This document shows, piece by piece, positions 1,351 through 19,899 of a stretch of 64,000 nt of DNA (within the stretch, counting starts at the first letter, position 1; each line of letters starts with the position of its first letter). The notes under the pieces were generated by a model. The model was not told the origin of the DNA. It did no database searches and was given only the letters and a program-made list of their open reading frames with translations. Source of the stretch: Prolixibacter denitrificans (GTDB taxonomy: Bacteria > Bacteroidota > Bacteroidia > Bacteroidales > Prolixibacteraceae); assembly GCF_003014495.1 (NCBI RefSeq), contig NZ_PYGC01000003.1, forward strand, positions 62,001 through 126,000. The letters are read 5' to 3'. The position numbers and the translations under genes were made by a program.

Positions 1351-1440
1351 CTTCATGTTGTTGGATTTTATGGTGCATCCAAGTTAACAAAATCTTTTCG
1401 GTTTTCGATGGATGGAGTTTTGGAGTGGTGAGATGGTTGG
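1351..1440 (-). repeat. Intergenic leader repeat, copy 1
   Basis: In gene direction it has a C/T-rich tract, then CATCCATCGAAAACC, GATTTTGTTAACTTGG and CCAACAACATGAAGAC, ending just before the kinase start. It shares this order with copies near 2231, 3369, 5385, 7269, 8319, 9655, 13079, 19036 and 19857. GTTAACTTGG may act as a Bacteroidota -7 box; no TTG-type -33 box is seen at the usual distance. Confidence 0.75.
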
Positions 1441-1443
1441 CGT

Positions 1444-2184
1444 TTACGATTGACGATTCTTCGGAGCCGTTTGATAGATAACGGGCATTTGTCCCTTCCA
1501 CTTACTCCATACGTCATTGTTGGTAATCAGTTCAGCCATAAAATGACCGACATTGATCCGGCTGACCGTTCCGGCATTAAAAATCGCACTTCGTGTGGGT
1601 GAAGGATGAACCTCGTATCCGGTGACCTGGTCTTCGTTTACCAAACCATCGGGACGAACCGCTACCCACTCGATGAAACTGTTTATTTGCCCCATCTTCG
1701 TCCGTAAATAATCGGCTGCCTTTTCATTATCGACATGTGGAGGTAACAATAACCGGAGGATGGCGATGACCAACCGTTGCCCCATCGAAACGGGTTCGTT
1801 TAAGTCGCGGTTCCGGTTGCCGGTCGTGTTCATCAATACAAATTTCACGGGCTTACCCGGTGCGTTCTTTTCAATGGCATGACAAAGGAGGATGACAGCG
1901 TCGGTCACCAGTCGTCGGGGTTTTCCGTATATCCCTTTCCAATTCGGATGATGGCCTAAACACGAAGCGACGGCATCACAATCGCGGATGTATCCGGCCA
2001 TTTCATCTACCGTGATTTCGGATACGCTGGCTTGAATGACGGACAGTTGGTCGTTGGTTTTCCATGTCTCGGGCAATTTCTCAGGCGAACGAACAATCAC
2101 CTTTACTTTTTGCCGGGAATTGAGCAGTTGCTCCACCAGATGTTTTCCGGTTGCTCCCGTTGCTCCAACGACTAATGTTGTCAT
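1444..2184 (-). CDS. NAD(P)-binding SDR-like protein (NmrA/atypical SDR)
   Basis: A 246-residue single-domain Rossmann protein. The dinucleotide-binding motif GATGATG lies at residues 7-13 right after the first beta strand, as in atypical short-chain dehydrogenases and NmrA-like NAD(P) sensors. No YxxxK catalytic pair stands out, so it may be a sensor or an isomerase-type enzyme rather than a classical dehydrogenase. It is monocistronic, flanked by leader repeat copies on both sides, and richer in GC than the kinase gene. The start is the only ATG in front of the Rossmann motif. Confidence 0.85.
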   Translation of the reverse strand: MTTLVVGATGATGKHLVEQLLNSRQKVKVIVRSPEKLPETWKTNDQLSVIQASVSEITVDEMAGYIRDCDAVASCLGHHPNWKGIYGKPRRLVTDAVILLCHAIEKNAPGKPVKFVLMNTTGNRNRDLNEPVSMGQRLVIAILRLLLPPHVDNEKAADYLRTKMGQINSFIEWVAVRPDGLVNEDQVTGYEVHPSPTRSAIFNAGTVSRINVGHFMAELITNNDVWSKWKGQMPVIYQTAPKNRQS

Positions 2185-2230
2185 ATCGTATGTTTATTCA
2201 TTCATTGAAATAAGCGTCCTATTCTACCAG

Positions 2231-2295
2231 ACACCATCAAGTTAAGGAAATTTGCCGGGTTTTGGGTGGGTGGGGGTTTGGAGGGAGCGGTGTAG
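2231..2295 (-). repeat. Intergenic leader repeat, copy 2 (partial)
   Basis: It keeps the C-rich tract, CCCAAAACCCGG and the core AATTTCCTTAACTTGATGG, but lacks the CCTAACAACCAACAAAATG tail. It lies about 47 bases upstream of the SDR-like gene on the minus strand. Confidence 0.6.
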
Positions 2296-2310
2296 GTTGG
2301 CAGTGATAAA

Positions 2311-2369
2311 TTGTAAGTTGTCGTTGCCATTCAAAGCCTAGGGTACGAACGCTGCAAGACAACTTACAA
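2311..2369. repeat. Inverted repeat with 12-bp perfect arms
   Basis: TTGTAAGTTGTC (2311-2322) pairs with GACAACTTACAA (2358-2369). The stem continues inward (TTGC/GCAA) past one extrahelical G. It starts 7 bases after the stop of the PLD-like gene, so it may be a terminator. The bulged stem also recalls the arms of attC recombination sites. Confidence 0.55.
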
Positions 2370-2375
2370 GCAATT

Positions 2376-3122
2376 TTATTCTTTTATTTCGGCTATAATA
2401 TCTTCAGGCCAAACAATGAATTTTCCATATGCACCTTCTTTTTGTTTTGCTCCAAGCTCATTCCCTTTTTTTGTAGCAAACCAATCTTCTTCCTTTTTAT
2501 ACATTAATTTATTGTCCACTAGCCATGAATTAATTTTTCTACTACTAATTCCAATTGCTTGAGATATTTCTTTAGTTGTTAACAATTTTGAATTTGAGAA
2601 GACTTTCTTGATTTCAGAATCATTTTGTCCATTCATAATTCCGTCAGGTTCATTCTGATCAAGTGTCTTTTGCGGAGCTTGCACGTAAGAAAAATCTTCA
2701 CTGTTATGCATAATTGACTCAATATCATTTGAGGCATCTTCATAAACTTCTTTATCATTCTCATTTGCTGTATCAATCAAAATCCCCATTTCTCTATTAT
2801 GTTGCTGAGAGAACTCATATAAATTCATTGAAGCAATTATCATTTTATTCTCATTTAAGTAACATTTTGCATGAAGATTCTTTGAAAAATATAGTCGAAC
2901 ATATTTTAATTTTTCCAAATAACTCATTTCCGCTGGGGCAAGTTCTTGTTTGCCAAAAATAATTCTAACGTCTACTTTCTCTCTTTCCTTATCATTTAGT
3001 AACTCTTTCATGTTGTCAGAGAGTTTTAAGTACGGACTTATTATATACAATTCTTTTCGTGCTTCTCTAATTAAGTTTTCTAATTCTGCCGTAATACTAG
3101 AGGTTCTTAAATACTTTGCCAT
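2376..3122 (-). CDS. Phospholipase D-like (HKD) domain protein
   Basis: 248 residues with one HKD-type motif: H84 and K86 in LHAKCYL, followed by ASMN (97-100) and E112. The N-terminal strand-helix pattern fits the PLD superfamily. A single HKD motif is typical of small bacterial nucleases that dimerise to form the active site. The last ~70 residues look like a winged-helix or SAP-like DNA-binding part (a TTKEISQAIGIS segment near residue 180). It is AT-rich and monocistronic, downstream of leader repeat copy 3. A DNA-cleaving role is inferred, not shown. Confidence 0.75.
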   Translation of the reverse strand: MAKYLRTSSITAELENLIREARKELYIISPYLKLSDNMKELLNDKEREKVDVRIIFGKQELAPAEMSYLEKLKYVRLYFSKNLHAKCYLNENKMIIASMNLYEFSQQHNREMGILIDTANENDKEVYEDASNDIESIMHNSEDFSYVQAPQKTLDQNEPDGIMNGQNDSEIKKVFSNSKLLTTKEISQAIGISSRKINSWLVDNKLMYKKEEDWFATKKGNELGAKQKEGAYGKFIVWPEDIIAEIKE

Positions 3123-3515
3123 TTTTTAGTTTTTTATCTGATTTTATTTTTAAACCTTATCTGTTATTGAATTTAGCGATTTGTCAATTTTCTTGAAATA
3201 CACTGGTCCACTTAATAGATTAGCTCTCACTGCAAAATTGTTTACACCGATGTGGCAAATCGTCGTGCACTTATTTTTCTTTTAGCTAGATGAAAAGATC
3301 TTCGTTCAATGCAAATGGGAAATTCTTTTTCTGTAGTAAAGATCGGATGTTGAGTGGTCAGATTCTCTATCTTCATTTTGTTGGCTGTTAGGGCTCGCTA
3401 TTTAACAAAATATTTTGGGTTTTCGATGGCTGGGGTTTCGGGGTGGAATGGGTTCGGTTGATAGATCGAAAAAAGCTTCGCTGTATATGACAATTTGTTT
3501 TGCATAACTTATTAA
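3123..3515. other. Intergenic stretch with repeat copy 3 and a decayed leader ORF
   Basis: No intact gene is seen. On the minus strand, reading on from the repeat at 3369-3457, an ATG opens a short frame that begins MKIENLTTQHPIF and runs about 32 codons. It resembles the short frames that follow repeat copies 6 and 9. Confidence 0.5.
3369..3457 (-). repeat. Intergenic leader repeat, copy 3
   Basis: Minus-strand order: C-rich tract, CCATCGAAAACCC, AATATTTTGTTAAATAG, CCCTAACAGCCAACAAAATGAAGA. The core TAACTTG is mutated here. It lies 247 bases upstream of the PLD-like gene start. Confidence 0.7.
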
Positions 3516-4232
3516 TCATGTTGTATAGAAGAAATACCAACCATCTTTAAATTTAATCAGTCGAACAATTACAAATCCATATGGTGGCAATTCATCTCCT
3601 ACTTTTAATTTCTTTTTAAAGGATTTAACGTAACCATATTCGTTATCAACAAATCCGTCTACTGTCAAGATTAAATAATCATCTGTCCGATTCAGTGAAA
3701 TTATATCTGAATCGATCATCCTCCTTTGAATATCTACAATCTCATCAATATTCAGGTTCTGTTTTTTGATATAACCTCCAAACGCATTTTCAATCTCTTT
3801 CTTCGTTATATATTTTAAGTCATTTGATAATGATTCATCATTTAAGCTTTTTTGGTAACGAAGCATATCAGTTAAATCATACACATTAGCTTTAGTACTT
3901 TCTTTTTCAATAACTTCTAAATTGCCCTTATTCATCAAATAATGAATATGGTGCCCCAAACTGAGCTTAGGAAATGCAGCAGTAAAGCTAAAAGCAACAA
4001 TAATCAAAGAGAGTGGTAGATATGAATAAAGTTTCTTTGAGCCATTCAGTGGGATGGTAACTATGGATAAAATCATCCCAATTACCGTTAATCCCATTAG
4101 CAACAATACATCTAAAAAAGGTCCAATAAGTATCGAATATTGTAAATCAAAAACACAAGCCAACAAAATCACCAGGCTTACTGCCATTGCCATAGATTTT
4201 ACAATGTTACTAATCACTTTTCTTATGGTCAT
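3516..4232 (-). CDS. Membrane protein of unknown function
   Basis: 238 residues, family not recognised. Three hydrophobic segments lie near residues 13-30, 35-60 and 72-90. A soluble C-terminal ~140 residues follows, rich in charged residues and beta-strand-like at the end (LILTVDGF, FVIVRLIKFKDGWYFF). The last part resembles the exported, beta-rich tails that often read 'kdGkWyi'. It is AT-rich and monocistronic. It lies directly downstream, in gene direction, of the attC-like element at 4257-4400. Confidence 0.65.
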   Translation of the reverse strand: MTIRKVISNIVKSMAMAVSLVILLACVFDLQYSILIGPFLDVLLLMGLTVIGMILSIVTIPLNGSKKLYSYLPLSLIIVAFSFTAAFPKLSLGHHIHYLMNKGNLEVIEKESTKANVYDLTDMLRYQKSLNDESLSNDLKYITKKEIENAFGGYIKKQNLNIDEIVDIQRRMIDSDIISLNRTDDYLILTVDGFVDNEYGYVKSFKKKLKVGDELPPYGFVIVRLIKFKDGWYFFYTT

Positions 4233-4256
4233 ATTTCATTGTTCATTAATAATTAC

Positions 4257-4400
4257 ACACAACGGTTTGTGTAAGTTGCGGGGCGGATTTCGGAAAGCGT
4301 CCCTGTCCGAAGGACACGGAACTGCGAAACGAGCCCCGAAGCCTCGGGGCACAGTTGGCGCACCACTGAACCCCGACCTGCAATATGTACTGTGTTAGAC
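4257..4400 (-). repeat. attC-like imperfect inverted repeat
   Basis: In minus-strand reading it begins GTCTAAC, which fits the integron R'' consensus RYYYAAC. The left arm ACAGTACATATTGCAGGTCGGGG is followed by a central part with two small GC hairpins, then a right arm CCCCGCAACTTACACAAACC and GTTGTGT. The right core departs from GTTRRRY at one position. The arms pair with bulges (GTAAGTTGCGGGG against GCAGGTCGGGG). At 144 bp, just 3' of the 4410-5198 gene, its size and place fit an attC site. No integrase gene lies in the window. Confidence 0.45.
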
Positions 4401-4409
4401 ATAGTTTTT

Positions 4410-5198
4410 TTATTTTGTCACGGTAAATTCTTTATAAAACTTAAATCTTTCAAGTTCTCCACTTGAATTAGGTATCTGAACTACTCCTTTGAATCCATGT
4501 TTTCCTAGTTTATTAATTTTCTCTCTGTAAATACCTTTACCGTCAATCGCATCAAGATAAAATGTTCTTTTATTGTCTGGTCTTATTGCATTTAGCACAC
4601 TGTCTGGCTGTGAAAAGTCTGTAACTATCATAGATGGACAAATTGTTGTGTCTTCGGCTGCAAGAATTATACTGGCTTGATATATATCGCCAACTTTAAT
4701 ATTGTCCGAAGAATCTACGACAACTACACTTAGTTTATTGAATTTATAATAATCAGCTTCAATTCTATTAAATAAATAACTTACAAGTTCATTCTCTAGG
4801 TTGAGAAGGTCTAATCTTATTATTTTTTTATTGTCTAATGATTTGAATGTTTTGAATCGATTAGGGATAATAATCTCTTTGATGTATTCAGAATTGAAGT
4901 ATGAAATCGATTTTATGGATTCATTCAAATTTATTAAGCCATCATTAATTGCTTTCAAATTTCCTTGGTCAACAAAATGCAGTAAGGAATCAAATGTCGT
5001 GTCCAAAAAAGAAGCGACCTCAAAATATGGTCTAGCCATTTCAGGATTTAATAGTAATTTCTTCTGAATCTTTGAAAGATTATACTTAATCTTCTCATTT
5101 ACAATCTTCGATTCATTTTGAAAATACCGACTCTTATTATTCTTACACGAATAAAAAATTGTGAATCCGATTGTCAATATTAAAATATACTTTTTCAT
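4410..5198 (-). CDS. Lipoprotein with GldM-like beta domain
   Basis: 262 residues. The N-terminus MKKYILILTIGFTIFYSC is a lipoprotein signal with Cys18. A helical middle (about residues 25-150) leads to a beta-rich end. There, KVGDIYQASIILAAEDT and the later GKGIYREKINKLGKHGFKG resemble the repeated beta domains of GldM, the type IX secretion/gliding component. At half the length of GldM it is probably a stand-alone relative or decoy, not GldM. It is AT-rich, monocistronic, and followed by the attC-like element. Placement in the envelope is firm; function is not. Confidence 0.65.
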   Translation of the reverse strand: MKKYILILTIGFTIFYSCKNNKSRYFQNESKIVNEKIKYNLSKIQKKLLLNPEMARPYFEVASFLDTTFDSLLHFVDQGNLKAINDGLINLNESIKSISYFNSEYIKEIIIPNRFKTFKSLDNKKIIRLDLLNLENELVSYLFNRIEADYYKFNKLSVVVVDSSDNIKVGDIYQASIILAAEDTTICPSMIVTDFSQPDSVLNAIRPDNKRTFYLDAIDGKGIYREKINKLGKHGFKGVVQIPNSSGELERFKFYKEFTVTK

Positions 5199-5551
5199 GT
5201 ATGTTCTTTCAAAATTATGGCTTACTAGTGTGTATCAACATTGCTGTTACGCGCCCTTATTGGGAAGTATTGCGTACGTTATAATTTGGCGTTGCCAAAA
5301 GCATTATTGATTGCTGCTTCCCCATACAATCAGGAAGCAGTCCTGCTACGTCACAAGCCTGATGGTAATTGGTCGAAATTACTGTCTTCATTTTGTTGGA
5401 TGTTTGGTGCATCCAAGTTAACAAAATCTTTCAGGTTTTGATGGGTGGGGATTTAGGGAAAGGGAACAGCTTGAATTAGCAGAACCGGAAGCACGGGCAG
5501 AACGCTTCATTGTTGACATCAGTCTACCTACCTATGCCTTTTATTCAATAA
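5199..5551. other. Intergenic stretch with repeat copy 4
   Basis: No supported gene. The minus strand reads on from the repeat at 5385-5466 into a frame of about 44 codons starting MKTVISTNYHQACDVAGLLP. Its IHHWDCDLAELLP-like middle matches the frame after copy 6, which marks it as a decayed relative. Confidence 0.45.
5385..5466 (-). repeat. Intergenic leader repeat, copy 4
   Basis: Minus strand: CCCCACCCATCAAAACC, GAAAGATTTTGTTAACTTGG, ATGCACC, ATCCAACAAAATGAAGAC. The core is identical to copy 1 over GATTTTGTTAACTTGGATGCACC. Confidence 0.75.
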
Positions 5552-7096
5552 TTAGTTCAATCCTAAAAAGCCGCGCCACAACTTTTGTTGAAGATCAGTT
5601 TTACCCAACTCATGAATTAATCGCAATTGTTTATTATTGGTACTTGCCTGAATTCCGGCAAACTCCAGGTATTTATTTAATGGAACTTCGTCTGTTCCAT
5701 TTATATAGGCATTCATAAATCCAGTGAAGTCAGTATGAGCAAGTAAATTGGCTTGATTTAGTATGTCCTGGTTGCCAATTAAGGTATCGGTTCCTGCTGT
5801 TTCTTTGTAGAAAAATTGCATCAGGTTATCTAAACTGTGAGCATTCTCGGTGTTATGCCTAATTTGCATATCGATACAGATTCCGGCAAACAGACCACCT
5901 CCATAAACAAGTCCCCAATGGTTATCCTTATCAAAACCTGAAGCAGCATCAGCCGGAGCAATCTTTCCCAAACCTTTGTCATTGATATATCGCTTATAAA
6001 ACAATTGATTCAAGACGCCTTTAATTGCTTCTTCATTTACTAGTTTGGCATTATATAGTGCTTTGAGTGTGTAGTAATTTGTGATCCCTTCCTTAAACCA
6101 ATCCGTACGGGTGTCTTTAAATCTAATTGATTTGCCATTCCAAAGGTGAAAGAATTCATGAGCAAACAGAAACCAGCTTATTATCTGTTCTTGTGGAGCA
6201 GCTTCCGGGTTTAGAAACAGACTAATGTTATCACCGATTACTTCACCATCCATTTCTTTTGATTGATTGATGACGACCAATACATTGGATAATTTACCCC
6301 CGGAGGAATTTTTGGGTAAACCTCCCATAAGATTTATGTAATAATCTAATATTTTGTTAGCCGCATCAACATAGTGCTCTTTATTCTTTGCAATGGTATC
6401 ACCTCCAAGTACAAAGTTTAGATTAAATTCATCGCGGGCAATTTTAACTTCCTGTTGAGTACCGGCAACTATGAATGATTCTAAAAGTTGGGTTTGATTG
6501 GCGACCATATAGGTTGTGTTCTCCGGATCTACGCTTTCCCAGGGAGTGGATATCTCCCAATCGTCAGGTTTCTTAAAGAGCACTTCTATATCTGTTTTAA
6601 CGTCACCATTGATAATAAACAAAGAGCGACCAGATGCCGTGATACCCCAATCTCTTACGAATGCCACCCCATCGATTCCACCAGGCCAATTTTGTTTTTC
6701 ATGATCAATAAGTACATGATAACGGATGATGATTTCCTGCCCCTTATGCACATTATTCACTATCCAGGCAGTTGAATCTCTTTTGTGTAATTTAAGCTGC
6801 TTTCCATTTTTAACATAAGCACACAAATCATGAATATACTGGGGCCATCTATAGGGCATTGGTCCATTATCACTCATTTTCAAGAGTGAATCCTTAAGTG
6901 TTATTTGTGCTTCAATTTTTACAAGTTTCGGGGTTGTTTCAGAAAACTCCAGACGATATTGGTCAGGTGAATTATTGGGTTTTTGCACCGAATGGGAACC
7001 ATTATGCGGCACTAAAATCACATTTGCCTCCGCAAAATGGGTACTCAAGGCAAACCCGCTTAGAATCATTAGAAATAGTAATTTCGTTTTTTCCAT
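5552..7096 (-). CDS. M61-family (glycyl aminopeptidase-like) secreted metallopeptidase
   Basis: 514 residues with a signal peptide ending near ALSTHFAEA (residue 24). A beta-rich N-terminal half leads to a zinc site HEFFH (313-317) followed by LWNGKSIR, and the third ligand Glu336 in WFKEGITNYY. That HExxH-LWN arrangement is typical of peptidase family M61. A C-terminal PDZ domain found in many M61 members is absent, so this is the short form. It is monocistronic, between leader repeat copies 4 and 5. Likely periplasmic peptide trimming. Confidence 0.85.
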   Translation of the reverse strand: MEKTKLLFLMILSGFALSTHFAEANVILVPHNGSHSVQKPNNSPDQYRLEFSETTPKLVKIEAQITLKDSLLKMSDNGPMPYRWPQYIHDLCAYVKNGKQLKLHKRDSTAWIVNNVHKGQEIIIRYHVLIDHEKQNWPGGIDGVAFVRDWGITASGRSLFIINGDVKTDIEVLFKKPDDWEISTPWESVDPENTTYMVANQTQLLESFIVAGTQQEVKIARDEFNLNFVLGGDTIAKNKEHYVDAANKILDYYINLMGGLPKNSSGGKLSNVLVVINQSKEMDGEVIGDNISLFLNPEAAPQEQIISWFLFAHEFFHLWNGKSIRFKDTRTDWFKEGITNYYTLKALYNAKLVNEEAIKGVLNQLFYKRYINDKGLGKIAPADAASGFDKDNHWGLVYGGGLFAGICIDMQIRHNTENAHSLDNLMQFFYKETAGTDTLIGNQDILNQANLLAHTDFTGFMNAYINGTDEVPLNKYLEFAGIQASTNNKQLRLIHELGKTDLQQKLWRGFLGLN

Positions 7097-7268
7097 TTTC
7101 GGTAGATTAGCATTTCTTACTTAGACCACGTAATTGGAAAAATGGTTACAGCATTTCTTGTTAATTGTTGCACAACGGTTTATATCTACTAAAACGACGC
7201 TATATCTTCCATATGGGCGTGATTGGTGTACCACTGGTGCTGAATTGTCAAGTAGTCAGTTTTTCAAT

Positions 7269-7353
7269 TCTCATTTTGTTGGTTGTTAGGATACATCCAA
7301 GTCCAGGAAATCTTTCGGGTTTCCGATGGATGGGTTTCGGGCTGGGGAGATGG
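7269..7353 (-). repeat. Intergenic leader repeat, copy 5
   Basis: Minus strand: CCATCTCCCCAGCCC, ACCCATCCATCGGAAACCC, GAAAGATTTCCTGGACTTGG, ATGTATCCTAACAACCAACA then AAATGAG. The TTAAC of the core is altered to CTGGAC. Confidence 0.75.
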
Positions 7354-7547
7354 TCAAAAGAGGGAGTTCCCAACCCCCAAATTGATTGGGGGTGAAGAAT
7401 GATTTATCCGGCGTTGCCGGAAAAGGACTACAAAAGAAATAGTTGTTTTTCAATGTGGCTAAACCACCATTGCGCTCGAAACAGCAAATGTATTTCAATC
7501 ATGTCCGTCACACGATCGCAATCTCACGCACGTTTCCCTACCCGGGG
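7346..7547. repeat. ~200-bp direct repeat, unit A
   Basis: About 88% identical by eye to 8402-8605 and in the same orientation. Both units contain the hairpin CCCCCAATCAATTTGGGGG, the stretch GAAATAGTTGTTTTTCAATG and a closing GTTTCCCTACCCGGGG. Both units directly adjoin a leader repeat copy, so the true repeated block is about 280 bp and brackets the SnoaL-like gene. Confidence 0.85.
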
Positions 7548-7595
7548 CTCATCCCTCCGGGATTTAGTCACCTAATTGGCAGGTATGTTTACAGT

Positions 7596-8084
7596 TCATT
7601 CAACACCGATACCTTTCAAAAATGTATTCCAATCCCAATAATCCCGGTTTTTACTGATTCGGTTATTTTCTATGTCCATTACCGATACGCCTCTCACTTC
7701 GAAATGCTTATTGGTGGCCGGAATATTCATATTCGCCCACCCCACGGTATTGGTACCGGTCCAAACCCATTCCACCATCGCCATATTTTCACTGGCTATC
7801 ACATCAACTATTTCGAAATCAGAATCAGGAACTCCTGCTATCGTGCGATCAAAATAATCAGCGATTGCTCTTTTCGTATTAAATTTCCTTCCGGTAGCCA
7901 CTTCTTCATACAAACAACTGTCGGCAAAAAGAGCGGTCAGGTTACCCGAATCGTGGCTTGACCAGGCATCAAGAGCGGCTTTGGCTAAAGCTTCATTATC
8001 ACGAATCTTCTGACTACTTTCATTACACCCGAACAAAAACATCAGTATGACAACAGCGATGGGGAAACTAATTTTTCTTTTCAT
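7596..8084 (-). CDS. SnoaL/NTF2-like lipoprotein
   Basis: 162 residues. The signal sequence ends in a lipobox with Cys20 (LFGC). The rest fits the alpha+beta cone fold of SnoaL/NTF2-like proteins: an ALDAWSSHDSGNLTALFADS helix-turn near the start, FNTKRAIADYFDRTIAGVPD in the middle, and paired strands MAVEWVWTGT and FEVRGVSVMDIENNRISKNRDYWD. These proteins bind small molecules or act as cyclases or isomerases. The gene sits between two copies of a 280-bp direct repeat, so it may be a mobile or duplicated unit. Confidence 0.8.
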   Translation of the reverse strand: MKRKISFPIAVVILMFLFGCNESSQKIRDNEALAKAALDAWSSHDSGNLTALFADSCLYEEVATGRKFNTKRAIADYFDRTIAGVPDSDFEIVDVIASENMAMVEWVWTGTNTVGWANMNIPATNKHFEVRGVSVMDIENNRISKNRDYWDWNTFLKGIGVE

Positions 8085-8318
8085 TTTATTATCGTTTTAA
8101 GTTAGGATTCACGAAAGCTTGTTAACCAGCATGTATCACACACAGCTGCGATTTTTCTTTTAACCAACTTTTGGGTGTCATGCTACTGTCAGAACCAAGG
8201 GCACGACAACACCTGGTATGCTGAGTGGTAAAAAACGATGGGAATGGCTGCTCCTCCACGCCAACGGGAAGGAGTTCTGCCAGGTCGCAATCCCAGTGAT
8301 GAATGGTTGGTTTTTCTG

Positions 8319-8400
8319 CTCTCATTTCACTGGCTGTTAGTACAGTTACAAGTTAACGAAATTTCTCCGGTTTTCCGATGGGTGGGCGGGAAAGGGATGG
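8319..8400 (-). repeat. Intergenic leader repeat, copy 6
   Basis: Minus strand: CCCGCCCACCCATCGGAAAA, then AATTTCGTTAACTTGTAAC, then ACTAACAGCCAGTGAAATGA. Confidence 0.7.
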
Positions 8401-8401
8401 T

Positions 8402-8605
8402 GAGGATGGCCAAAAGGGGGCGTTCCCAACCCCCAAATTGATTGGGGGTGAAGAATGGTTTATCCAGCTTTGCCGGAAAAGAACAAGCCAAAAGAAATAG
8501 TTGTTTTTCAATGTGGCTACACCACCATTGCGCTCGAAACAGCGAATGTATTTCAATCATGTCCGTCACACGATCGCTATCTCACACACGTTTCCCTACC
8601 CGGGG
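8402..8605. repeat. ~200-bp direct repeat, unit B
   Basis: Second unit, matching 7346-7547 in the same orientation, with the same CCCCCAATCAATTTGGGGG hairpin. The two match up to CCTACCCGGGG and then diverge. Confidence 0.85.
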
Positions 8606-8866
8606 ATTTAACTCAGGCGGCGCACTACCCCACCCCGATATTTCGGGGCCTAAAGGGGCTTTTGGCATTTCATATCAATGCCATTACGTGCCGCGCAGGG
8701 AAATACAAGCATTATTCGGTTTGGAACATGCGCCTCTTTTCCATTAGGGGCAATGACTCAGGTGGCGAAAAATGCGTGAGTCAGTTCCGGATGCACATCC
8801 CGGGCAGGAGGAACACTTTGACTTGTTCCGACAGCTATCGGGGTGAACACTAGGCAACGGTGTTCC

Positions 8867-9586
8867 TTAGTAGATTCCCGGAAACAAGCGGTAACGTACG
8901 CGGCGGGTATAATCGCGATATCCCGGCAGTTCTTCCTGTAGCGTCCGGTCTTCCAGGCGGGTCCGTATCACGGCAATGATCAGGGCCACTATCACTGGAA
9001 TGATGGTCCAAACGGAGCCCAATGCCAGTACCATGCCGGGCAGCGCCAGGATATTCCCGGCATACCCCGGATGCCGCACAAAGCGGTACGGACCGCTGTC
9101 ACACACCCGGTGTCCCCGGTCGGTCTGAATACGTACCATGGTTGAAAAGAATCGGTTTTCGACCATGGCCCATCCCCCGAATGCGTAACCCAACGCAACC
9201 AGGAGGAAGCCTATGATGTTGAGCCATACCGGAAACTGGGGTGACCACCCTAAGCGGTGATCGAGTCCCGCCACGATGTATAAGGGGAATGATATGGTCA
9301 GTATCATTAACGGAGCCAGTACTTTGTCCCATGATTTCACATCCTGGTCTTTTCCAAATTTGCCCCGTTCGGCCAGCAATCCCGGATGCTTTCTTTCTGC
9401 CCACAACCGCGGACCGATGGCCGCTACCGTTATCAGCGCTGAATACAACCACCCCTGCCACCACCCCCAATCCCATCCGCTTATCATGAGCACCAGCGGT
9501 ACCAGGAGATACGTGATGATTAATCCAGCCAAATACTGGGGGCTTACTGATTGAGGTGCCTTTTGATCGACTGTTTTCGGTGCCAT
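8867..9586 (-). CDS. Isoprenylcysteine carboxyl methyltransferase-like (PEMT/ICMT) membrane enzyme
   Basis: 239 residues with about five membrane segments (near 18-36, 48-62, 88-106, 119-142, 182-207). The SAM-binding signature GPYRFVRHPGYAG at 165-177, and the C-terminal LEDRTLQEELPGYRDYTRRV, are characteristic of the bacterial ICMT/PEMT-like methyltransferases. The physiological substrate of bacterial members is mostly unknown. A clear purine-rich site (GAGGAGGAA) precedes the ATG and overlaps the end of a 19-codon leader frame (MRTKKLTGYRSVW...) that starts in repeat copy 7. GC-rich and monocistronic. Confidence 0.85.
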   Translation of the reverse strand: MAPKTVDQKAPQSVSPQYLAGLIITYLLVPLVLMISGWDWGWWQGWLYSALITVAAIGPRLWAERKHPGLLAERGKFGKDQDVKSWDKVLAPLMILTISFPLYIVAGLDHRLGWSPQFPVWLNIIGFLLVALGYAFGGWAMVENRFFSTMVRIQTDRGHRVCDSGPYRFVRHPGYAGNILALPGMVLALGSVWTIIPVIVALIIAVIRTRLEDRTLQEELPGYRDYTRRVRYRLFPGIY

Positions 9587-9654
9587 AGCGATTCCTCCTC
9601 ATTCAACGGTGTGTCTTTGCAATCCAGACAGAACGATAACCGGTCAGTTTTTTC

Positions 9655-9740
9655 GTTCTCATTTCGCTGGTTGTTAGGACATAACTAAGTTAACGAAATC
9701 TTTCGGGTTTTGGGAGGAGGATTGGACTGGTGAGATGGGG
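9655..9740 (-). repeat. Intergenic leader repeat, copy 7
   Basis: Minus strand: CCCCATCTCACCAGTCC, CCCAAAACCCGAAAGATTTC, GTTAACTTAG, GTCCTAACAACCAGCGAAAT then GAGAACG. Its ATG opens a 19-codon frame that stops in front of the methyltransferase ribosome site. Confidence 0.75.
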
Positions 9741-9864
9741 AAGATTGTGAATATAGCATCCTAAGATGGCAGTACGGTCCCAACGCTGACCAAGAGAATT
9801 TTGTTCCACGCAAAGGACGCCAAAGAAATTCGCAGAGAAAAGAAATATCCATGGATACACTCGG

Positions 9865-11885: not shown

Positions 11886-11941
11886 ATTTGGCTGTAGGTT
11901 GCGGGTTGGGTTGGTCTTCGGGCCGGTGGAACGATTGAAGT

Positions 11942-13003
11942 CTACTTTTCTAAGTTATCTTTGTCAATCTGCTCTTTGATACTATTCTGAAGTCGCTCCT
12001 TCAAATCTTCATTTCTCTTCATCAAGGATTTCGTCTTTTCAATCTCTTTGTCATCCTTCAAGTCCTTCAGTTTATCTTTTAATGCTTCCTGCTTTTTCTC
12101 TATCTCTTTAATATAGTCCTTTTTAGTTTCAATTTTTCCCGATTCGATGGCTTCATCAAATATCAAATCTTCCGGAGATTTTTCTTTAACCGGTTCTATT
12201 TTCTTAATAACCTGCGTAGGGATGAATTCTTTTTCGTCCACACGTCGTTGGTTCATAAAAGTCGGTGATACAATTTCTATTTTTTCTTCGTGAAGTCTAT
12301 CCATGACATGCGCGTTAAGAAGTGAACTCGTGCTGAAATAGCTACTACTGTCCTCTAAAAAACCATGAATTTTGTATACGACTGAAAAATCCCCCAAACT
12401 GGTAATATAGACATAAGGGTCAGACAGTCCGGCTGAAATCGCTGCCTCTTTTAGTGCCTTTTCAATATTATCCCGCGATATATCGTATCCTAATGAAACG
12501 GACGCGGAAATCACAGTGTTTGTCTTGCGTATCAATTTAACAGGATTGCTGGCAACATAGAGATTGGGAATCGATATAAAATTGCTGTCTTCGAGTTGGA
12601 TTTCCGTATGAAAAACACTTTTCTTAATCACCCTACCCTGTAAGTCTCCAATTTTTATCAGGTCTCCATTCCTAAAACGGTTCATGGATTTGTTCATAAT
12701 CCCAGCTATCAGGTTGCCTAAAACGGTGGTTGAACTTAAAGCAATCCCTGCACTAATAATTATTCCAAGAAAGCCCAAGATTTGTCCTTTCAGTGATTTA
12801 TCAATTGGCAAGACCAGAATAAAAACCAACAGACCGATGAGAACCAGGAAAAATGAAATAGCCCCTCTGGTAATATTTCCATTTGATGCCGTTGATTTCA
12901 TTCTCTTAAAAATCCACGAGTTGAAAACCAAAAGGACGACTAAAATCAGTAAAACAACTGTCGGTTCAATAAATGATTCAAATATGTTTTCCATCTTCTC
13001 CAT
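11942..13003 (-). CDS. MscS-family small-conductance mechanosensitive channel
   Basis: 353 residues. Three membrane segments (about 10-30, 47-65, 72-95) lead into the MscS pore helix and beta domain: GISVTTVLGNL-type region at ALSSTTVLGNLIAGIM, then GDLIKIGDLQGRVIKKSVFHTEIQLEDSNFISIPN. The C-terminal ~90 residues are a highly charged coiled coil rich in Lys and Glu that ordinary MscS lacks. It would release osmolytes on hypo-osmotic shock. Repeat copy 8 lies upstream. The coiled-coil tail is the odd part and may mediate partner binding. Confidence 0.88.
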   Translation of the reverse strand: MEKMENIFESFIEPTVVLLILVVLLVFNSWIFKRMKSTASNGNITRGAISFFLVLIGLLVFILVLPIDKSLKGQILGFLGIIISAGIALSSTTVLGNLIAGIMNKSMNRFRNGDLIKIGDLQGRVIKKSVFHTEIQLEDSNFISIPNLYVASNPVKLIRKTNTVISASVSLGYDISRDNIEKALKEAAISAGLSDPYVYITSLGDFSVVYKIHGFLEDSSSYFSTSSLLNAHVMDRLHEEKIEIVSPTFMNQRRVDEKEFIPTQVIKKIEPVKEKSPEDLIFDEAIESGKIETKKDYIKEIEKKQEALKDKLKDLKDDKEIEKTKSLMKRNEDLKERLQNSIKEQIDKDNLEK

Positions 13004-13078
13004 TCTTTTTTACTACTGTGTCCCTTTTCCTTCAACGCACCTGTTCATACCAATCAAAAGTTTTCTTTTCTTATATCT

Positions 13079-13127
13079 TGGATGTTAGGGTTGTAACAAG
13101 TTACCAAAATCTTTTCAATTGAAGGAT
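13079..13127 (-). repeat. Intergenic leader repeat, copy 8 (short)
   Basis: Minus strand: CAATTGAAAAGATTTTGGTA ACTTG, then ACAACCCTAACATCCAAG. Only the core and the CCTAAC part are kept; the C-rich tract is gone. It lies about 75 bases upstream of the MscS gene. Confidence 0.6.
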
Positions 13128-13190
13128 ATTGGGTATTTCAGGTAAAACAACGGTTGGCGATTTATTTTTCGATATGATTTACATCCTGCT

Positions 13191-14084: not shown

Positions 14085-14292
14085 TTTTATTGTTTTTAAT
14101 CGACACCACAAAGATATTTTGCGTTATCTCCGGAATCAGCCAAAATATAGCTACTATTCGTTGTAATGACACTACTTCTGGTTGTTATTCAGCAACCCTT
14201 GGTTGTTTGTGTAGAATTGGACAGTGCAAAACAGTTATTTCCAGATGGTCGGCTATTGGTGGTTCAGAGATTGAATATGGGCATTTATGAAT

Positions 14293-14898
14293 TCATCTAA
14301 TGAATCGTATTTTCGGTTGGTACCGAGCTTCCTTTTCTTCCTTGATTCGAATGGAGTTGATGATAATCAGAATGAAGTTGTAGGTATACAGGAAGCCGTA
14401 CACGACATATTTGATGGTTGGATTGATCATCAGCGCGGGCGACATATCCTGGGCTTGAGCAAACCGGTAGATCGTTATGCCCGTAAAGGTTACAAAAGCC
14501 AATACCAACAACAGCGTCCAGGTTATCTGGAAGTTTAGTATCTCCCGGATCAGGCTTTTCAGTCCGGCGATTTTCCCTTTTTTGAAAATCCACAGGAACA
14601 GCGGGATGATAATCCCCAGTAAGGGAAAAAGGATAAACCCCAGCGACGAAGCGTTCAAAGCTGACAAAAAGCTTTTATCTGTCTGTTCTTCCCAATCGAT
14701 TATCTCGTCAGGGGTCACTTTTAATGTATTGGCCAGCTTCTTTAACGTGTCGCCTCTTGGCTCGGTCTGCCCGCTTTCAATTCGTTGAATGGTTCGAAGG
14801 CTTAACCCGGTTTCGTCCGCCAGCACTTCCTGCGACAACCCGCTTTTCATTCGAATCTCTTTAACTCTTTCCGACAAATTCATGTTTTTCATTTTCAT
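14293..14898 (-). CDS. HTH (XRE) regulator with C-terminal membrane segments
   Basis: 201 residues. An XRE domain at about 8-62 (SGLSQEVLADETGLSLRTIQ) is followed by four hydrophobic segments near 85-105, 117-137, 150-165 and 168-190. HTH proteins tethered to the membrane are common in Bacteroidota, where they often control a nearby transport or stress gene. The start is the first of three close Met codons (M1, M3, M6); the exact one is uncertain. No obvious target lies beside it. Confidence 0.8.
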   Translation of the reverse strand: MKMKNMNLSERVKEIRMKSGLSQEVLADETGLSLRTIQRIESGQTEPRGDTLKKLANTLKVTPDEIIDWEEQTDKSFLSALNASSLGFILFPLLGIIIPLFLWIFKKGKIAGLKSLIREILNFQITWTLLLVLAFVTFTGITIYRFAQAQDMSPALMINPTIKYVVYGFLYTYNFILIIINSIRIKEEKEARYQPKIRFIR

Positions 14899-14999
14899 TG
14901 ATTTGGTTCAGCTTAAAAATAGGTTGGAACCCTTACGCTGCTTGCGACTATCATGTGACATGTTTACGACAAGGGTGTCATTTTTATTAGCGATAAAGA

Positions 15000-15539
15000 C
15001 TACTTGTCTGTAGTTGCACTTATTTTATCATATTCACGTTTCGTCATTCGGTAAATCACTCCTTTTTGCCCGTTGAAGTCAAATTGTTGCTTGAATGTCA
15101 TTCCTATTTTTTCGAGCACCTGGATTGATGCCTTGTTTTCCGTCATGGCCCGTCCGACTATCTCCTCAATATTCAAGTCTGAGAAACCAAACTCCAGGCA
15201 CCTGCCGGCAGTCTCGGTGGCGTATCCTTTGTTCCAAACGTCTTTGAAAAACCGAAAGCCAATATCATACTCATCGATATCAGGACTGTATTTCAGCCCG
15301 CACCACCCGATAAAAGCATCTGTTTCTTTATCAATGACCGCCAATCGCCCGACTCCATATTTTTCATACTGTTCGTATTGTTTCAAAAATCGCCGGGCCC
15401 CATCAACGGTTTGGAAAGGAACATCTCCAGTATATTTCAACACATCCGGGTCCAGATTCAGACGATAGAAATCTACTGCATCATTGACCGTCAGATTTTG
15501 CAAATAAGTTCTTTCTGTTTCAAGTTTTATCGTTTTCAA
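15000..15539 (-). CDS. GNAT-family N-acetyltransferase (RimJ/RimL type)
   Basis: 179 residues covering one complete GNAT domain of the RimJ/RimL class: ERTYLQNLTVNDAVDFYRLN at the front, a VWNKGYATETAGRCLEFGF motif A region that binds acetyl-CoA, and NKASIQVLEKIGM at motif B. The only in-frame start is TTG, because a stop codon lies three codons upstream of it and no ATG occurs until late in the protein. Substrate unknown. Monocistronic. Confidence 0.85.
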   Translation of the reverse strand: MKTIKLETERTYLQNLTVNDAVDFYRLNLDPDVLKYTGDVPFQTVDGARRFLKQYEQYEKYGVGRLAVIDKETDAFIGWCGLKYSPDIDEYDIGFRFFKDVWNKGYATETAGRCLEFGFSDLNIEEIVGRAMTENKASIQVLEKIGMTFKQQFDFNGQKGVIYRMTKREYDKISATTDK

Positions 15540-15636
15540 TAGGCTTATTTATGTTTGTTCATAGACCTCAAAGACTGGTTAGTAGTTGTCATCCTATGAG
15601 ACATCACCATCCATTATCTTTCGGCCAGTACTGCTC

Positions 15637-16470
15637 TTATTTTATCAAATCAAGATATCTACTACTCATCCACCCCAGAGAATAAGTGGGTTCCTTATTA
15701 TTATCTCCAACTGCATTCCAATCTCTATGAACACCCGAAGTATTGTTATCTATTTTCACAAACCACCAAATCCGGCCAGTAACATCTTTTCTCTCAGCTA
15801 TTGCATAACCTATTGTGTTTTTGGAATAAACATCTATCGTATTACCATAAGCATCAAAGGGTCTGACAATCTCTGTCGTATCATCAATTACAGGTGAGAA
15901 TCTAAGTTTGTATTCCTCATTTCGGATTTTGAACGCAATGGGTCTATCAAAAAAAACGGTTGGAAAAACCATTTCAGGGACATACTCTTCTTTTGACTGT
16001 AATGAGTATTTTATTTTTCCTCCCTGAAGAGTTAGTACGTAGTTTTCGAATACATTGGTGAAGCCTCCACAGCAAGCATAATTATTTATTCTAAGTACCA
16101 TTTTCTCTCCTGGCTGGTAGGTTGATACATCACAAAGTTTGCCAATAACAGAGAGAATACATTCAAAACTGACACCATTTGAGCGGTAAACCTCAGTTAT
16201 CCCTCCATCTATACCTCCCTCTCCTGAAAATAATATATCTTTCAATCCATCCTGGTCAACATCAACGATGTGCAACTCGTTTAGATCAAAAAACCTGAAA
16301 ATATTCTCGGACTCGGTTAATGATTTTATTCGTTCTACATATTCTTGTTTTTCATTCTTATCAGAAATCAATTCCCAGTCTTTAAGTTTAGATAGCGTTT
16401 CGCCATAGTTAAATTGAGCGAAGCAGTTAGTGCTGACCAGAGTTAATAAGATGAATAGTTTTGTCCTCAT
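15637..16470 (-). CDS. Secreted protein with a Ca-binding-like repeat, function unknown
   Basis: About 277 residues from the ATG at 16470; the frame upstream opens only at TTG. The signal peptide is MRTKLFILLTLVSTNCFAQ. A DVDQDGLKDILFSGEG segment near residue 65-80 has the D-x-D-x-D-G form of FG-GAP or dockerin-like calcium loops. CCGGFTNVFENY follows, and an SH3-like end (GRIWWFVKIDNN, LGWMSSRYLD) may bind peptidoglycan. The family is not recognised. Monocistronic. Confidence 0.7.
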   Translation of the reverse strand: MRTKLFILLTLVSTNCFAQFNYGETLSKLKDWELISDKNEKQEYVERIKSLTESENIFRFFDLNELHIVDVDQDGLKDILFSGEGGIDGGITEVYRSNGVSFECILSVIGKLCDVSTYQPGEKMVLRINNYACCGGFTNVFENYVLTLQGGKIKYSLQSKEEYVPEMVFPTVFFDRPIAFKIRNEEYKLRFSPVIDDTTEIVRPFDAYGNTIDVYSKNTIGYAIAERKDVTGRIWWFVKIDNNTSGVHRDWNAVGDNNKEPTYSLGWMSSRYLDLIK

Positions 16471-16607
16471 AGTTTGGCCTTTAACGGTCGCTTTACTTGG
16501 CAAAGATTATTGACTTCCGGCGCATTATACATGCGCGATACAATATACAAATTGTGGACGTATGATGATTCACTCTCCCTTCAAATCAAAGTTTACCGGC
16601 TTCTGTT

Positions 16608-18067
16608 CTAGTCCATCAACTCCAGGTAATTTCTCACAAAATATACCCAATTATCCAGACGATCGTATAATTGTTCCGTTGTAGGATAGGGTATCATCAC
16701 ATCCGGCGAGATTCCGATGTTATCAATGGGATGTTCGGGTAATCTTTTTGAGCGAGTCAATGGATACGTCAGTTTGTAATTCCCGGAAGGGAGTATGACC
16801 GGCACTGCGTTTGAATAATCCAGAACGCCGGCCGTATGTTGATTTCCAAATAACGTCACTTTTTTGCTGTTTTGGGCAGCCAGGAGAAATTGTTCGGCAG
16901 AAGACGCATTTCCATCGTTAATGATGATTCCCACCTTCCGGGGATACCGGTATACTGTATCCCTGATTACTTCTTCATCTCCGCCGTATATGGCGTCGGT
17001 TACAAAACCACCCACATTTTTCTTCATGGCCCGAAGCAAGGCTTCTGCCCATTTGATTCCTTCTTCTCCATCCCTGATGTCCCCATTTTTCAATTCATCT
17101 TCGAAAAACTGTATATTTCCTTTGGTTGCATAATACTCAACATCCTTGCTTTCATATGGATGGGTGTAAATCAGCTCGGCCAGTTTCTGGTAATAGGTGT
17201 CCTGACCACCTCCATTGTACCGGAGATGTCGATGATTAAATTGGGACGGCTTGTGATCTCGTTCCAATGCCGGATAACCACATTATTTGACTCCTCCGTT
17301 TCAAAACCGGGAATGCGCAAATAATAGGTACTGTCGTTTAACGCGGTAGCTACGGGATAGATATTCATCCCGTTGGGATATTCAGCGACATAAGAGTAGA
17401 GAAGCGCCCGGTCTGATATTTCATTGGACGTCTGCCTGACAAACTTCGTATTGTCGTGTATTTCCAGGACGTTGTTATTGATATGCAACGATGCTTTCCC
17501 TTTCAGGGTACGGGAATTAGTTGGATTAAAGGAAGTCATTTCAAACTCATTATTTTCCTGTTTCGAAAATTCAAACATCACCTGATTGCGCTCGTAGTTT
17601 CGATACTGAACTGCCACTCCAACGTAACGGCCCTCTTCTTTTTGAACGATGGCTATCTTTCCCCGAAAGCCGATCCAAATTCCTTCGATTGATTGGCCGG
17701 TGTTATTGATACTGTCCAAATGAACCGGATAAAAACGGATTTGCGTCTCTGCTTTTTCGTTGTTTTTTCGATGCATATTCGCCCGGGTACCGCTTACCCG
17801 CAAATGATAGTCTTTGAACCATTCGGTATAAAGATTGAAATATTTCCGGCAGGAATCGGGATACTGAACAATCCGTTTTCGCAGGTTTTGCTCCAGCTGC
17901 TTCAGGTCCGGCAATGTTTCTTTGTTCACTTTATCGTTGTAACCCGGATAATCGTTTTTAATCTTTTCAACGAGGTAATCGAAGTCTTTTAAGCATTCAT
18001 TTTTCTGTGCGTGTACAACAAATGAGGTTAAAATGCCCATCATTAAAAACAATACTTTTTTGGTCAT
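16608..18067 (-). pseudogene. S41-family (tail-specific/IRBP-like) peptidase, split by a frameshift
   Basis: Two overlapping frames make one ~486-residue protein. The upstream part (17171-18067) has a signal peptide and reaches RPNLIIDISG. The downstream part (16608-17267) resumes in another frame at YNGGGQDTYYQ and carries the S41 catalytic region (INDGNASSAEQFLLA, with the nucleophile Ser in ASSAEQ). Restoring one T at about 17219 would give DISGYNGGGQD, the expected family sequence. So this is a one-base deletion, from a real mutation or an assembly error. Both halves keep coding character, so the loss is recent if real. Confidence 0.85.
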
Positions 18068-18203
18068 AGTTTGGTGGTTTGAAAGTTGTCGAAAGTCTTT
18101 TTTGTCGTCTGTTAGTTAAATGAATATCAGGGCTGTCAATCCATCCCAAAACTTCGAGGGATTCCTGACTTTCATTGGCTGTACTGACTTCTGCCCAGAC
18201 TCC

Positions 18204-18857
18204 TTATTCTATTTTTAATGGAAATGTCAAGATGGTATTCACTTTATCTTTTCCTATGATTAATGGTTCAAAACGTTCTTTCATCACACTGTTAGCTATA
18301 TTCAACTCATTCTTTTTCCCGAGGCTGCCAAGCCATCTAATCCTAATTGGTTCTCCCCCCTTATCGACGAATATTTGAATATGTGCTTTTCCCTCGTTCA
18401 ATTCATCCAGCGCATTTATCACTCTCGATATCTTTTTAGCATTTATTCGAAGAAGTGCAGAGTCCGTCAGATTGAAGAATTCACTTCTAAATCTGGGCCT
18501 GTCAAATGGGTTCGCCGGGTAATCAATAATCTCGTTCTTAAACTTCACTCTCACAGCGCTATCCATTACAGCTCTGTAGCATTCAATCCCTGCTGTTACA
18601 GTACACCCCCGATAAATAAGTTCAATCCCCAGTTGCCTGATTATTAATCTATTTGTGTCAGGTGAAGAAACAATCCCAAATTCATATAATTTGTATTTTC
18701 CTGCTTTCAGGTCGTTAATCGCCTGAAGCTTCATTTTATTGCAGATGCTATCATCCGAATTCGTGATAACGGATTTTGTTGTCACATTTTCCTGTGAAGA
18801 ATTCGCGCAAGACAAAACAATCAGAAAGGCAAGTATTATATTCAAGTATCTTCTCAT
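18204..18857 (-). CDS. Lipoprotein with TonB-like C-terminal domain
   Basis: 217 residues. MRRYLNIILAFLIVLSCANS is a lipoprotein signal with Cys17. The C-terminal ~60 residues (AHIQIFVDKGGEPIRIRWL through FEPLIIGKDKVNTILTFPLKIE) follow the strand-helix-strand layout of the TonB C-terminal fold seen in many Bacteroidota envelope proteins. It lacks the proline-rich linker and inner-membrane anchor of true TonB. It is likely an envelope protein that uses this fold for binding. Monocistronic, preceded by the 62-codon leader frame of repeat copy 9. Confidence 0.65.
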   Translation of the reverse strand: MRRYLNIILAFLIVLSCANSSQENVTTKSVITNSDDSICNKMKLQAINDLKAGKYKLYEFGIVSSPDTNRLIIRQLGIELIYRGCTVTAGIECYRAVMDSAVRVKFKNEIIDYPANPFDRPRFRSEFFNLTDSALLRINAKKISRVINALDELNEGKAHIQIFVDKGGEPIRIRWLGSLGKKNELNIANSVMKERFEPLIIGKDKVNTILTFPLKIE

Positions 18858-19042
18858 TTCTTATCATTGGTCGAATTCGTGTGAACCAACATGATTGTTA
18901 TACCCTCATTCTGAGTTGCATTGAATGTCTTTTTGTGTTGAGTTGTCAAAAACCTTATCCGTTGTTCTTCTCCAATACAGGTGGGAAACTCTTCATCTGT
19001 TATAAAGAGCGAATGATAGCTGTTCAAATTTTTAGTCTTCAT
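18854..19042 (-). CDS. Short leader-type ORF (62 codons) of repeat copy 9
   Basis: Its ATG is the ATG of the intergenic repeat, and its stop overlaps the start of the downstream lipoprotein gene by 4 bases. The product (MKTKNLNSYHSLFITDEEFP...) shares pattern with the frames after copies 3, 4 and 6: M(K/R)-x-(E/K)-N-L near the start, then H, EEFP/ELLP, EEQ, and FLTTQH/FFTTQH. It may be a leader peptide or the decayed start of an old gene. Low confidence that a protein is made. Confidence 0.35.
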   Translation of the reverse strand: MKTKNLNSYHSLFITDEEFPTCIGEEQRIRFLTTQHKKTFNATQNEGITIMLVHTNSTNDKK

Positions 19043-19097
19043 TTTGTTGGTTGTTAGGTCAGTCCCAAGTTACCAAAATCTTTCAATTTTTTGGTCG
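19036..19097 (-). repeat. Intergenic leader repeat, copy 9
   Basis: Minus strand: AATTGAAAGATTTTGGTAAC, TTGGGACTGACCTAACAACC, AACAAAATGAAGAC. Core and tail are well kept; the C-rich tract is replaced. Confidence 0.75.
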
Positions 19098-19190
19098 TTC
19101 AATACGAAATTTGGAGATGAGATCTTGTTTTCTCCTTTAGATAAAACACTGCTCAATCTTCGGGGGCTATTCCGCTTGAATTTCCCCTTA

Positions 19191-19847
19191 TTATTTACAT
19201 CCTTCTAATTCACAGTCTTTCCAATCGATGGGTTGACATTCGCCTCTGATGAGCTTTTTTATCCGTTCCACTCTTTCCCTGTTTCTTTCCGGGTACTTGT
19301 CGATCCTATAGCGGTTGGGATTTAACAACATAGCGGTTAACGATAGGTATTCGTCGTGTGTTAGTTCACTGAAATTCTTTCTAAAATAGAATTTAGCGCC
19401 ATTGGAGAAACCGTGTATCTCGCTTCCGTCATTGTAATTCCCCAAATACGCGTAGCTATAAAACAATTTTAATTGGTCTGCTTTCGAAACGGAAGGATCG
19501 AATACCAGCCGCGTGATGAGCATCAACCGGATTTTCGACAATCCGGGATGGAACTGCTTAAAGTAGAACAGCTTGACCAATCCCTGACTTATCGTCGTCC
19601 AACCGGCACCCGGAGAACGAAAGTCCAGGCCTTTATGCGAATAAAAGCCGGGGTCTTCCACCATTAGCATATCAGCAATTCGCTGTTCACCTATGGAATC
19701 AAGTTCGAGCGTACAGTTTTTGGAGTTCAGCAATCCCTGAACCAGACGATCGGTTTTGGATTTGGCAATGATTAAGTCTATTCCCGGAATTCCGATGATC
19801 AAAAGTCCGAGGACAACAAGCGATATTTTTAACCGTTTGTTTTTCAT
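19191..19847 (-). CDS. Monofunctional GT51 transglycosylase-like protein
   Basis: 218 residues from the ATG at 19847; a GTG farther upstream sits inside repeat copy 10. An N-terminal membrane anchor (about 6-22) leads to EDPGFYSHKGLDF, matching the GT51 EDxxFxxHxGxD catalytic motif, and to WTTISQGLVK, matching the STITQQLVKN motif. SEIHGFSNGAKFYFRKN and LSLTAMLLNPNRY fit the rest of the fold. Such enzymes polymerise glycan from lipid II. The protein is near the size of MtgA but with weaker motif 3, so activity is likely but unproven. Confidence 0.8.
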   Translation of the reverse strand: MKNKRLKISLVVLGLLIIGIPGIDLIIAKSKTDRLVQGLLNSKNCTLELDSIGEQRIADMLMVEDPGFYSHKGLDFRSPGAGWTTISQGLVKLFYFKQFHPGLSKIRLMLITRLVFDPSVSKADQLKLFYSYAYLGNYNDGSEIHGFSNGAKFYFRKNFSELTHDEYLSLTAMLLNPNRYRIDKYPERNRERVERIKKLIRGECQPIDWKDCELEGCK

Positions 19848-19856
19848 ATGAAGTAA

Positions 19857-19899
19857 CTGGTTGTTAGGCTTCACAACAAGTTAAGGAAAATTCTTCAAG
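19857..19899 (-). repeat. Intergenic leader repeat, copy 10 (short)
   Basis: Minus strand: CCTTGAAGAATTTTCCTTAA, CTTGTTGTGAAGCCTAACAA, CCAG. It sits right at the GT51 gene start. Confidence 0.6.

Follow-up and report, generated by a model that had tools for sequence, protein, structure and literature searches.

A promoter-like unit repeated through a probable, mostly decayed integron cassette array in Prolixibacter denitrificans

Introduction

In large integron arrays most gene cassettes lie far from the single cassette promoter (Pc), and how these distant cassettes are expressed is an open question. Here we describe a 64,000-nucleotide (nt) stretch of the Prolixibacter denitrificans genome (contig NZ_PYGC01000003.1, positions 62,001 to 126,000; hereafter the window), in which a single promoter-like sequence recurs in ten copies, each ahead of a different, unrelated gene; the likely reason is that it belongs to an integron-type array that captures genes. 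Gene-less promoter cassettes are established in Vibrio superintegrons, where 29 have been tested and most were active (PMC11014356), and promoter cassettes without an open reading frame (ORF) are known from oral integrons (PMC6557892). For the Bacteroidetes proper, IntegronFinder 2.0 listed only In0 elements and a single complete integron (PMC9024848), and a full-text literature search for Prolixibacter together with integron returned no relevant paper.

Like the known attC cassette arrays, the Prolixibacter arrays run on one strand, vary strongly in content between relatives and have their integrase elsewhere or not at all. Unlike them, they occur several to a genome, with the same unit at the head of every one, and the repeat that recurs along the array is not a uniform attC site but this promoter-like unit. 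An original prediction, made from the letters of the window, had offered two readings of the repeat: a promoter-leader that is mobile and was copied to places before unrelated genes, or a border between gene cassettes. Each of them agrees with the data presented below, in which the repeat is bounded by integron-type crossover points and the cassette content differs between species; the promoter role is putative. We propose, with a probability of roughly two in three, that the window carries a mostly decayed chromosomal integron array through which a practically gene-less, promoter-like unit was amplified.

Results

The ten copies were recovered by alignment, by a search for direct repeats and with R1, a sequence-only covariance model built from these same copies, at the predicted positions and in the predicted orientation, all on the minus strand. 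R1 scored them with E-values from 5e-18 to 5e-8, so that they form one family. In the minus-strand alignment of the ten copies, the most conserved part of the unit is GATTTTGTTAACTTGG-N6/7-CCTAACAACCAACAAAATGA. The full predicted formula, a C/T-rich tract followed by CCATCGAAAACC, GATTTTGTTAACTTGG and CCTAACAACCAACAAAATG, was found in part of the copies and broke down in the rest: CCATCGAAAACC and the C/T-rich tract upstream of it are present in only some of the ten, copies 13079, 19036 and 19857 being without CCATCGAAAACC, the CCTAAC tail is absent from copy 2231, and variant sequences (CCATAAAATCCAAC and CCAAACATCCAAC) occur in copies 1351 and 5385. Of 120 genomes sampled from the family, R1 matched 4, which all belong to Prolixibacter, and of 26 near relatives it also matched 4. 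An exact-pattern scan of all genomes gave matches only in P. bellariivorans and in one uncultured Prevotellaceae contig, where the core tail CCTAACANCCAACAAAATGA is matched exactly (L076:2568-2587), perhaps by chance.

The array occupies the same chromosomal locus in all four species, with 10 units in the window genome (G000), 5 in G001, 15 in P. bellariivorans (G002), two of which are weak matches, and 2 in G003. The genes that flank it are conserved, and most of the inner genes lack an equivalent at this position in the other species. Nearly all array genes lie on one strand, and their Pfam content comprises kinase, PLD-like, M61 peptidase, SnoaL, methyltransferase, beta-lactamase-like, LRR, MscS-like, GNAT and transglycosylase domains. 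Genes for NAD(P)H-binding, methyltransferase and beta-lactamase-like proteins are common to the species but stand beside different neighbours.

A second, smaller locus was found in three of the species (G000 C7:2583, G001 C1:1856422 and G002 C5:183645), behind a gene that we take to be exonuclease-like from a reading of its first residues, not from a database match. Core and leader are here ~90-93% identical and are then followed by different genes in each species, which are separated by conserved stretches of ~140 nt with attC architecture. A cassette starts with G|TTRRRY, and its first 9 nt are the exact complement (9/9) of the R'' at its own 3' end. This exact pairing was obtained for 11 cassettes in chained walks, three of them in G000, four in G001, one in G002 and, within the P. 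bellariivorans array, three spread over two modules, while random GTT[AG] positions gave it at a null rate of 4 in 587 (0.7%). Moreover, at 5 of the 12 junctions that were fixed only by the end of the leader homology, an exact complement is present in the cassette's own downstream DNA, a result reached in 7 of 20000 permutations. Since exact complementarity between start and R'', cassette after cassette, is the mark of integron cassettes, we regard these modules as such. In the window's own array, the sites that were tested lacked this complementarity. The R''-L''...L'-R' architecture of attC was also seen in L046, L050, L086, L087 and P. bellariivorans. A strict automatic attC scan, which called for seven uninterrupted complementary bases, returned few sites above background, and the R'/R'' test was therefore preferred.

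On the contig of the window, a further unit has about five gene cassettes behind it, which carry attC-like sites, and again no intI is present (L046:10498-15100, C3:200497 onward). Degenerate intergenic tandem repeats of ~20 nt were noted at L034 1560-2000, L037 360-720, L036 560-860 and L043 1270-1480, and three of these four regions sit directly upstream of solitary units.

The ends of the unit were placed by comparisons drawn from the relatives and the second locus. At the 5' end, the comparison comes from three P. bellariivorans units, each preceded by a different attC site: upstream of G|TT they are 24-29% identical, and exactly from there on 96%. On the 3' side, seven leaders (type I) end in ...ACACATATAAACTA|GTT with a pairwise identity of 70-75% over the last 20 nt, and three (type II) end in ...GATACATACTA|GTT with 60-80%; past G|TT the identity is 50-63% over the next 20 nt and then about 20-40%, the corresponding figures for the seven type I leaders being about 55% and about 30-40%. 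Because the identity switches at G|TT on both sides, the unit lies exactly between two crossover points.

Several observations bear on what the core is and is not. Had it been only a normal promoter, which would have refuted the original prediction, its profile should have matched most gene starts equally; R1 gave only 21 matches at E<=1 in the 4.73-Mb genome, so the core is not a general promoter. In keeping with this, an ordinary promoter was rejected on finding GTTAACTTG in none of 113 other upstream regions. The usual -7 box of the Bacteroidota is TAnnTTTG, which occurs in 17 of the 113 upstream regions versus 3 internal ones. The supposedly related cores at 20730 and 40985, which had been put forward as ordinary promoters, fall outside the family: R1 gives no match there, the common part amounts to GTAACTTATT / GGTAACTTGATC, and the proposed relationship is thus unsupported. 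As a search key, CCATCGAAAACC was discarded as well, since six of its 11 exact matches in the genome were inspected outside the window and are not followed by the element.

In the core, a -7-like TAACTTG is followed by a short A-rich leader and then by an ATG. This layout also precedes the ATG of a family of IntI-like recombinase genes and therefore fits a promoter plus start-codon region. To judge from this sequence, the unit would act as a promoter with a presumed transcript start ~7 nt past TTAACTTGG, before CCTAACAACCAACAAAATGA. A second, more AT-rich subfamily of cores (TATTTTGTTAACTTAGTGAGCATTAACGACCAACTAAATGAAGA) stands before other small genes (L084:4169, 6246, 9543; L085:4742; L088:4707, 7228). 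Other functions of the unit were considered and rejected. As an attC hairpin it performs poorly, the single-strand folds of four copies being no better than those of shuffled sequences (z -0.76 to +1.28), and the inverted repeat ATTTTGTT/AACAAAAT in the core shows no covariation above shuffles (83.8 vs 83.4% paired). No Rfam match to a riboswitch or known RNA leader was obtained in positions 1-22000 of the window. A conserved leader peptide was likewise set aside: some copies can be read through as an ORF of ~40 amino acids (aa; e.g. MKTVNSTIHLRACDLAEQLPIW...), and several others break the frame.

An integron integrase (TIGR02249 over the curated cut-off) is encoded in the three genomes with the larger arrays (G000, G001 and G002) by intact, conserved ORFs, and no such integrase over the cut-off was found in the two-unit genome G003; in the family, 5 of 120 genomes have one. 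The intI gene of the window genome lies at C5:110033-110971 (L009), on a different contig from the window; its product scores 355.7 bits, with an extra domain region that aligns to 2a3v, and L094 and L095 contain the ORFs of the other two species. The catalytic set of IntI consists of R135, K160, H267, R270, H293 and Y302, the last three of which are kept in all three species (residue numbers were checked by counting along the 2a3v sequence). An IntI-like tyrosine recombinase without the integron extra domain is encoded at C6:1-350, at C16:1-350, at the ends of C24 and C27 and, in G003, at C1:431051, 1278319 and 215996; it has 386 aa by translation in G003, and a core-like promoter region precedes three of the starts (C6, C16 and G003 215996). 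G003 further contains more than 10 near-identical genes for a 294-aa tyrosine recombinase (C1:438796-484539, 1284187-1292863, 1866855-1872685 and 2623571), several of them ~2.5 kb apart, which we read as a recently expanded mobile element.

In the window array, one attC site is preserved on the minus strand at 4257-4401, in the gap that separates gene 4410-5198 from gene 3516-4232 (R'' GTCTAAC ... R' GTTGTGT), and the single-stranded DNA fold of positions 4235-4380, which make up most of this gap, gave z=-2.7. At 3479-3503 (minus strand), at the 3' end of gene 3516-4232, a half attC-like remnant (GCAAAACAAATTGTCATATACAGCG) resembles, by eye, the left halves of attC sites.

The ten minus-strand copies lie ~7 to 280 nt upstream of the minus-strand ORF that follows. 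Copy 1 (core 1350-1415, R1 score 61.3 bits) is nearly fused to the protein-kinase gene 66-1343, and in the cross-species alignment its similarity stops just past ATGAAGACAGAAAAT. Copy 2 (2230-2274, 31.4 bits), truncated on its downstream side, precedes an NAD(P)H-binding gene (1444-2184, Pfam) that is kept in three species, and copy 3 (3370-3433, 55.4 bits) a PLD-like gene (2376-3122, Pfam). The next four copies have a recognisable leader end. Copy 4 (5226-5448, core 5385-5448, 58.1 bits) ends in ...GATACACACTA|GTAAGCC before a gene with a GldM-like domain (4410-5198); copy 5 (7177-7334, core 7268-7334, 63.5 bits) ends in ...GATATAAACC|GTTGTGCAAC, resembling the leader end at the second locus, before a peptidase M61 gene (5552-7096); copy 6 (8127-8385, core 8321-8385, 59.6 bits) ends in ...GATACATGCTG|GTTAACAAG before a SnoaL-like gene (7596-8084); and the short leader of copy 7 (9608-9718, core 9656-9718, 60 bits) ends in ...GACACACC|GTTGAATG before a methyltransferase gene (8867-9586). 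Copy 8 (13072-13132, 49.5 bits), one of those without CCATCGAAAACC, precedes a mechanosensitive-channel gene (11942-13003, Pfam), copy 9 (18870-19099, core 19036-19099, 59.6 bits) has a leader of ~165 nt in front of gene 18204-18857, and copy 10 (19853-19911, 37.2 bits), the most diverged, overlaps the alternative GTG start of a transglycosylase gene (19191-19874, Pfam).

Two further features of the array were noted. Upstream of adjacent units, positions 7349-7547 and 8405-8605 form a pair of ~200-bp segments, 91-97% identical, with relatives in G001 and G002. At 16608-18067 a protein is split over two overlapping ORFs, for which P. bellariivorans has a single ORF of 485 aa (L080:3737-5194), so that a frameshift, decay or a sequencing error may lie behind the split.

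Discussion

If the array arose as we propose, the unit would be a segment of ~150-350 nt made up of the C/T-rich 5' tract, the promoter-like core (GATTTTGTTAACTTGG, the presumed transcript start and CCTAACAACCAACAAAATGA), a leader 50-170 nt long and, last, an attachment site with CTA|GTT at its end. Since G|TT stands on both sides of it, cassettes can sit directly behind the unit, and the unit itself can be flanked by attC sites. Integrase-type recombination would have put gene cassettes at the downstream G|TT, and the unit would have been amplified along the array, whether it moved as a cassette or a Pc-attI segment was duplicated in tandem. In this way most single genes or small runs of genes would have received a promoter each and would no longer have relied on a single distant Pc, while solitary units elsewhere in the chromosome would act, or would once have acted, as further landing sites. 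A bolder version, to which we give only a rather low likelihood, is a distributed integron, in which one integrase would serve in trans many scattered and array-reiterated promoter-attI units, each captured gene coming to lie behind its own promoter; the work would be done by a variant IntI, active with an altered catalytic set, or by the IntI-like recombinase whose gene starts share the core.

Several points weigh against our proposal. The array of the window, which we take to be mostly decayed or fossil, retains just a single whole attC and a single half site, and the integron reading therefore rests mainly on the relatives. The cross-species switch points in this array (after GACAGAAAAT for the NAD(P) gene and upstream of AAACCCGAAAG for the methyltransferase gene) are also less sharp than those of P. 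bellariivorans. No recognisable attI, attC or array lies beside intI, and in all three species IntI carries the substitutions R135K, K160N and H267Y relative to V. cholerae IntI (2a3v) and may therefore be inactive; either the variant enzyme is active after all, or another recombinase inserted the cassettes, or the insertions are old. The core, with TAnnTTG, is one T shorter than the usual -7 box. Finally, a classical mobile cassette should carry its own R'/R'' pair, and inspection of the leader ends revealed no convincing pair of this kind through which the unit could be excised.

The last point leads to a sub-version of our proposal, which we rate a little below even odds, namely that the unit is not a mobile cassette but an attI-Pc landing pad, multiplied by segmental duplication and served in trans by an integrase from a distant intI. 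Besides the lack of a convincing R'' that would match the unit's own start, it would account for the solitary copies at orthologous sites with cassettes only behind them, including the one in L046, and for the core that is common to the start regions of the IntI-like recombinase genes. What speaks for an inserted cassette is that the P. bellariivorans unit starts exactly at the R' of the preceding attC sites; duplication of attI together with its right flank could give the same picture, and the two are hard to separate. From its sequence, the unit may thus be either a promoter-carrying cassette or a repeated Pc-attI segment. Outside the integron framework, the region might be a hypervariable locus in which dispersed promoter-leader repeats allow RecA-type crossing over to swap genes, the attC sites being incidental and having come with a few cassettes. 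The absence of most attC sites from the window array, the integrase without three canonical residues and the cross-species switches at differing places inside the element would all agree with such homologous recombination, which nevertheless predicts neither the exact switches at G|TT and CTA|GTT nor the exact R'/R'' pairs of the chained cassettes, and we consider it unlikely.

A common promoter or RNA leader under one regulator, unrelated to gene mobility, could explain why conservation before unrelated genes remains strong past the presumed start (CCTAACAACCAACAAAATGA). Given that positions 1-22000 of the window gave no Rfam match, that the inverted repeat in the core covaries no more than shuffled sequences do, that the frame of the small ORF is not kept in all copies and that the genes behind the copies vary between species, such a regulon seems to us improbable. 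Even less credible is a small transposable element resembling a miniature inverted-repeat transposable element that happens to carry a promoter: the copies are indeed repeated, dispersed and partly diverged, but no inverted-repeat ends or target duplication were noticed in the sequences read, the orientation within the array is always the same, and the ends coincide with integron crossover points.

On the integron reading, a promoter unit before most genes of an array would be a natural solution to the expression of distant cassettes, and a phylum from which there are hardly any reports of integrons, the Bacteroidota, would be added. A further question is how cassette content can diverge between species when three canonical catalytic residues are absent from their integrase. 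Like the promoter cassettes of Vibrio (PMC11014356) and of oral integrons (PMC6557892), the Prolixibacter unit is of cassette size, contains no clear gene, is bounded by recombination sites and stands before gene cassettes, with a promoter that is presumed here. Unlike those, one family of it is reiterated 5-15 times in each larger array, before most genes or gene groups; moreover, the unit belongs to the Bacteroidota, an R'/R'' pair of its own is not evident, and its promoter is putative. It resembles the classical Pc-attI platform in the order of its parts, a promoter and then an attachment site that takes up cassettes at G|TT, with transcription that would run in the direction of the cassettes, and differs from it in that the units are many and lie far from intI, for which no intI-attI neighbourhood was found. 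Compared with these systems, one promoter unit reiterated through a Bacteroidota array, together with solitary landing sites elsewhere in the chromosome, appears to be new.

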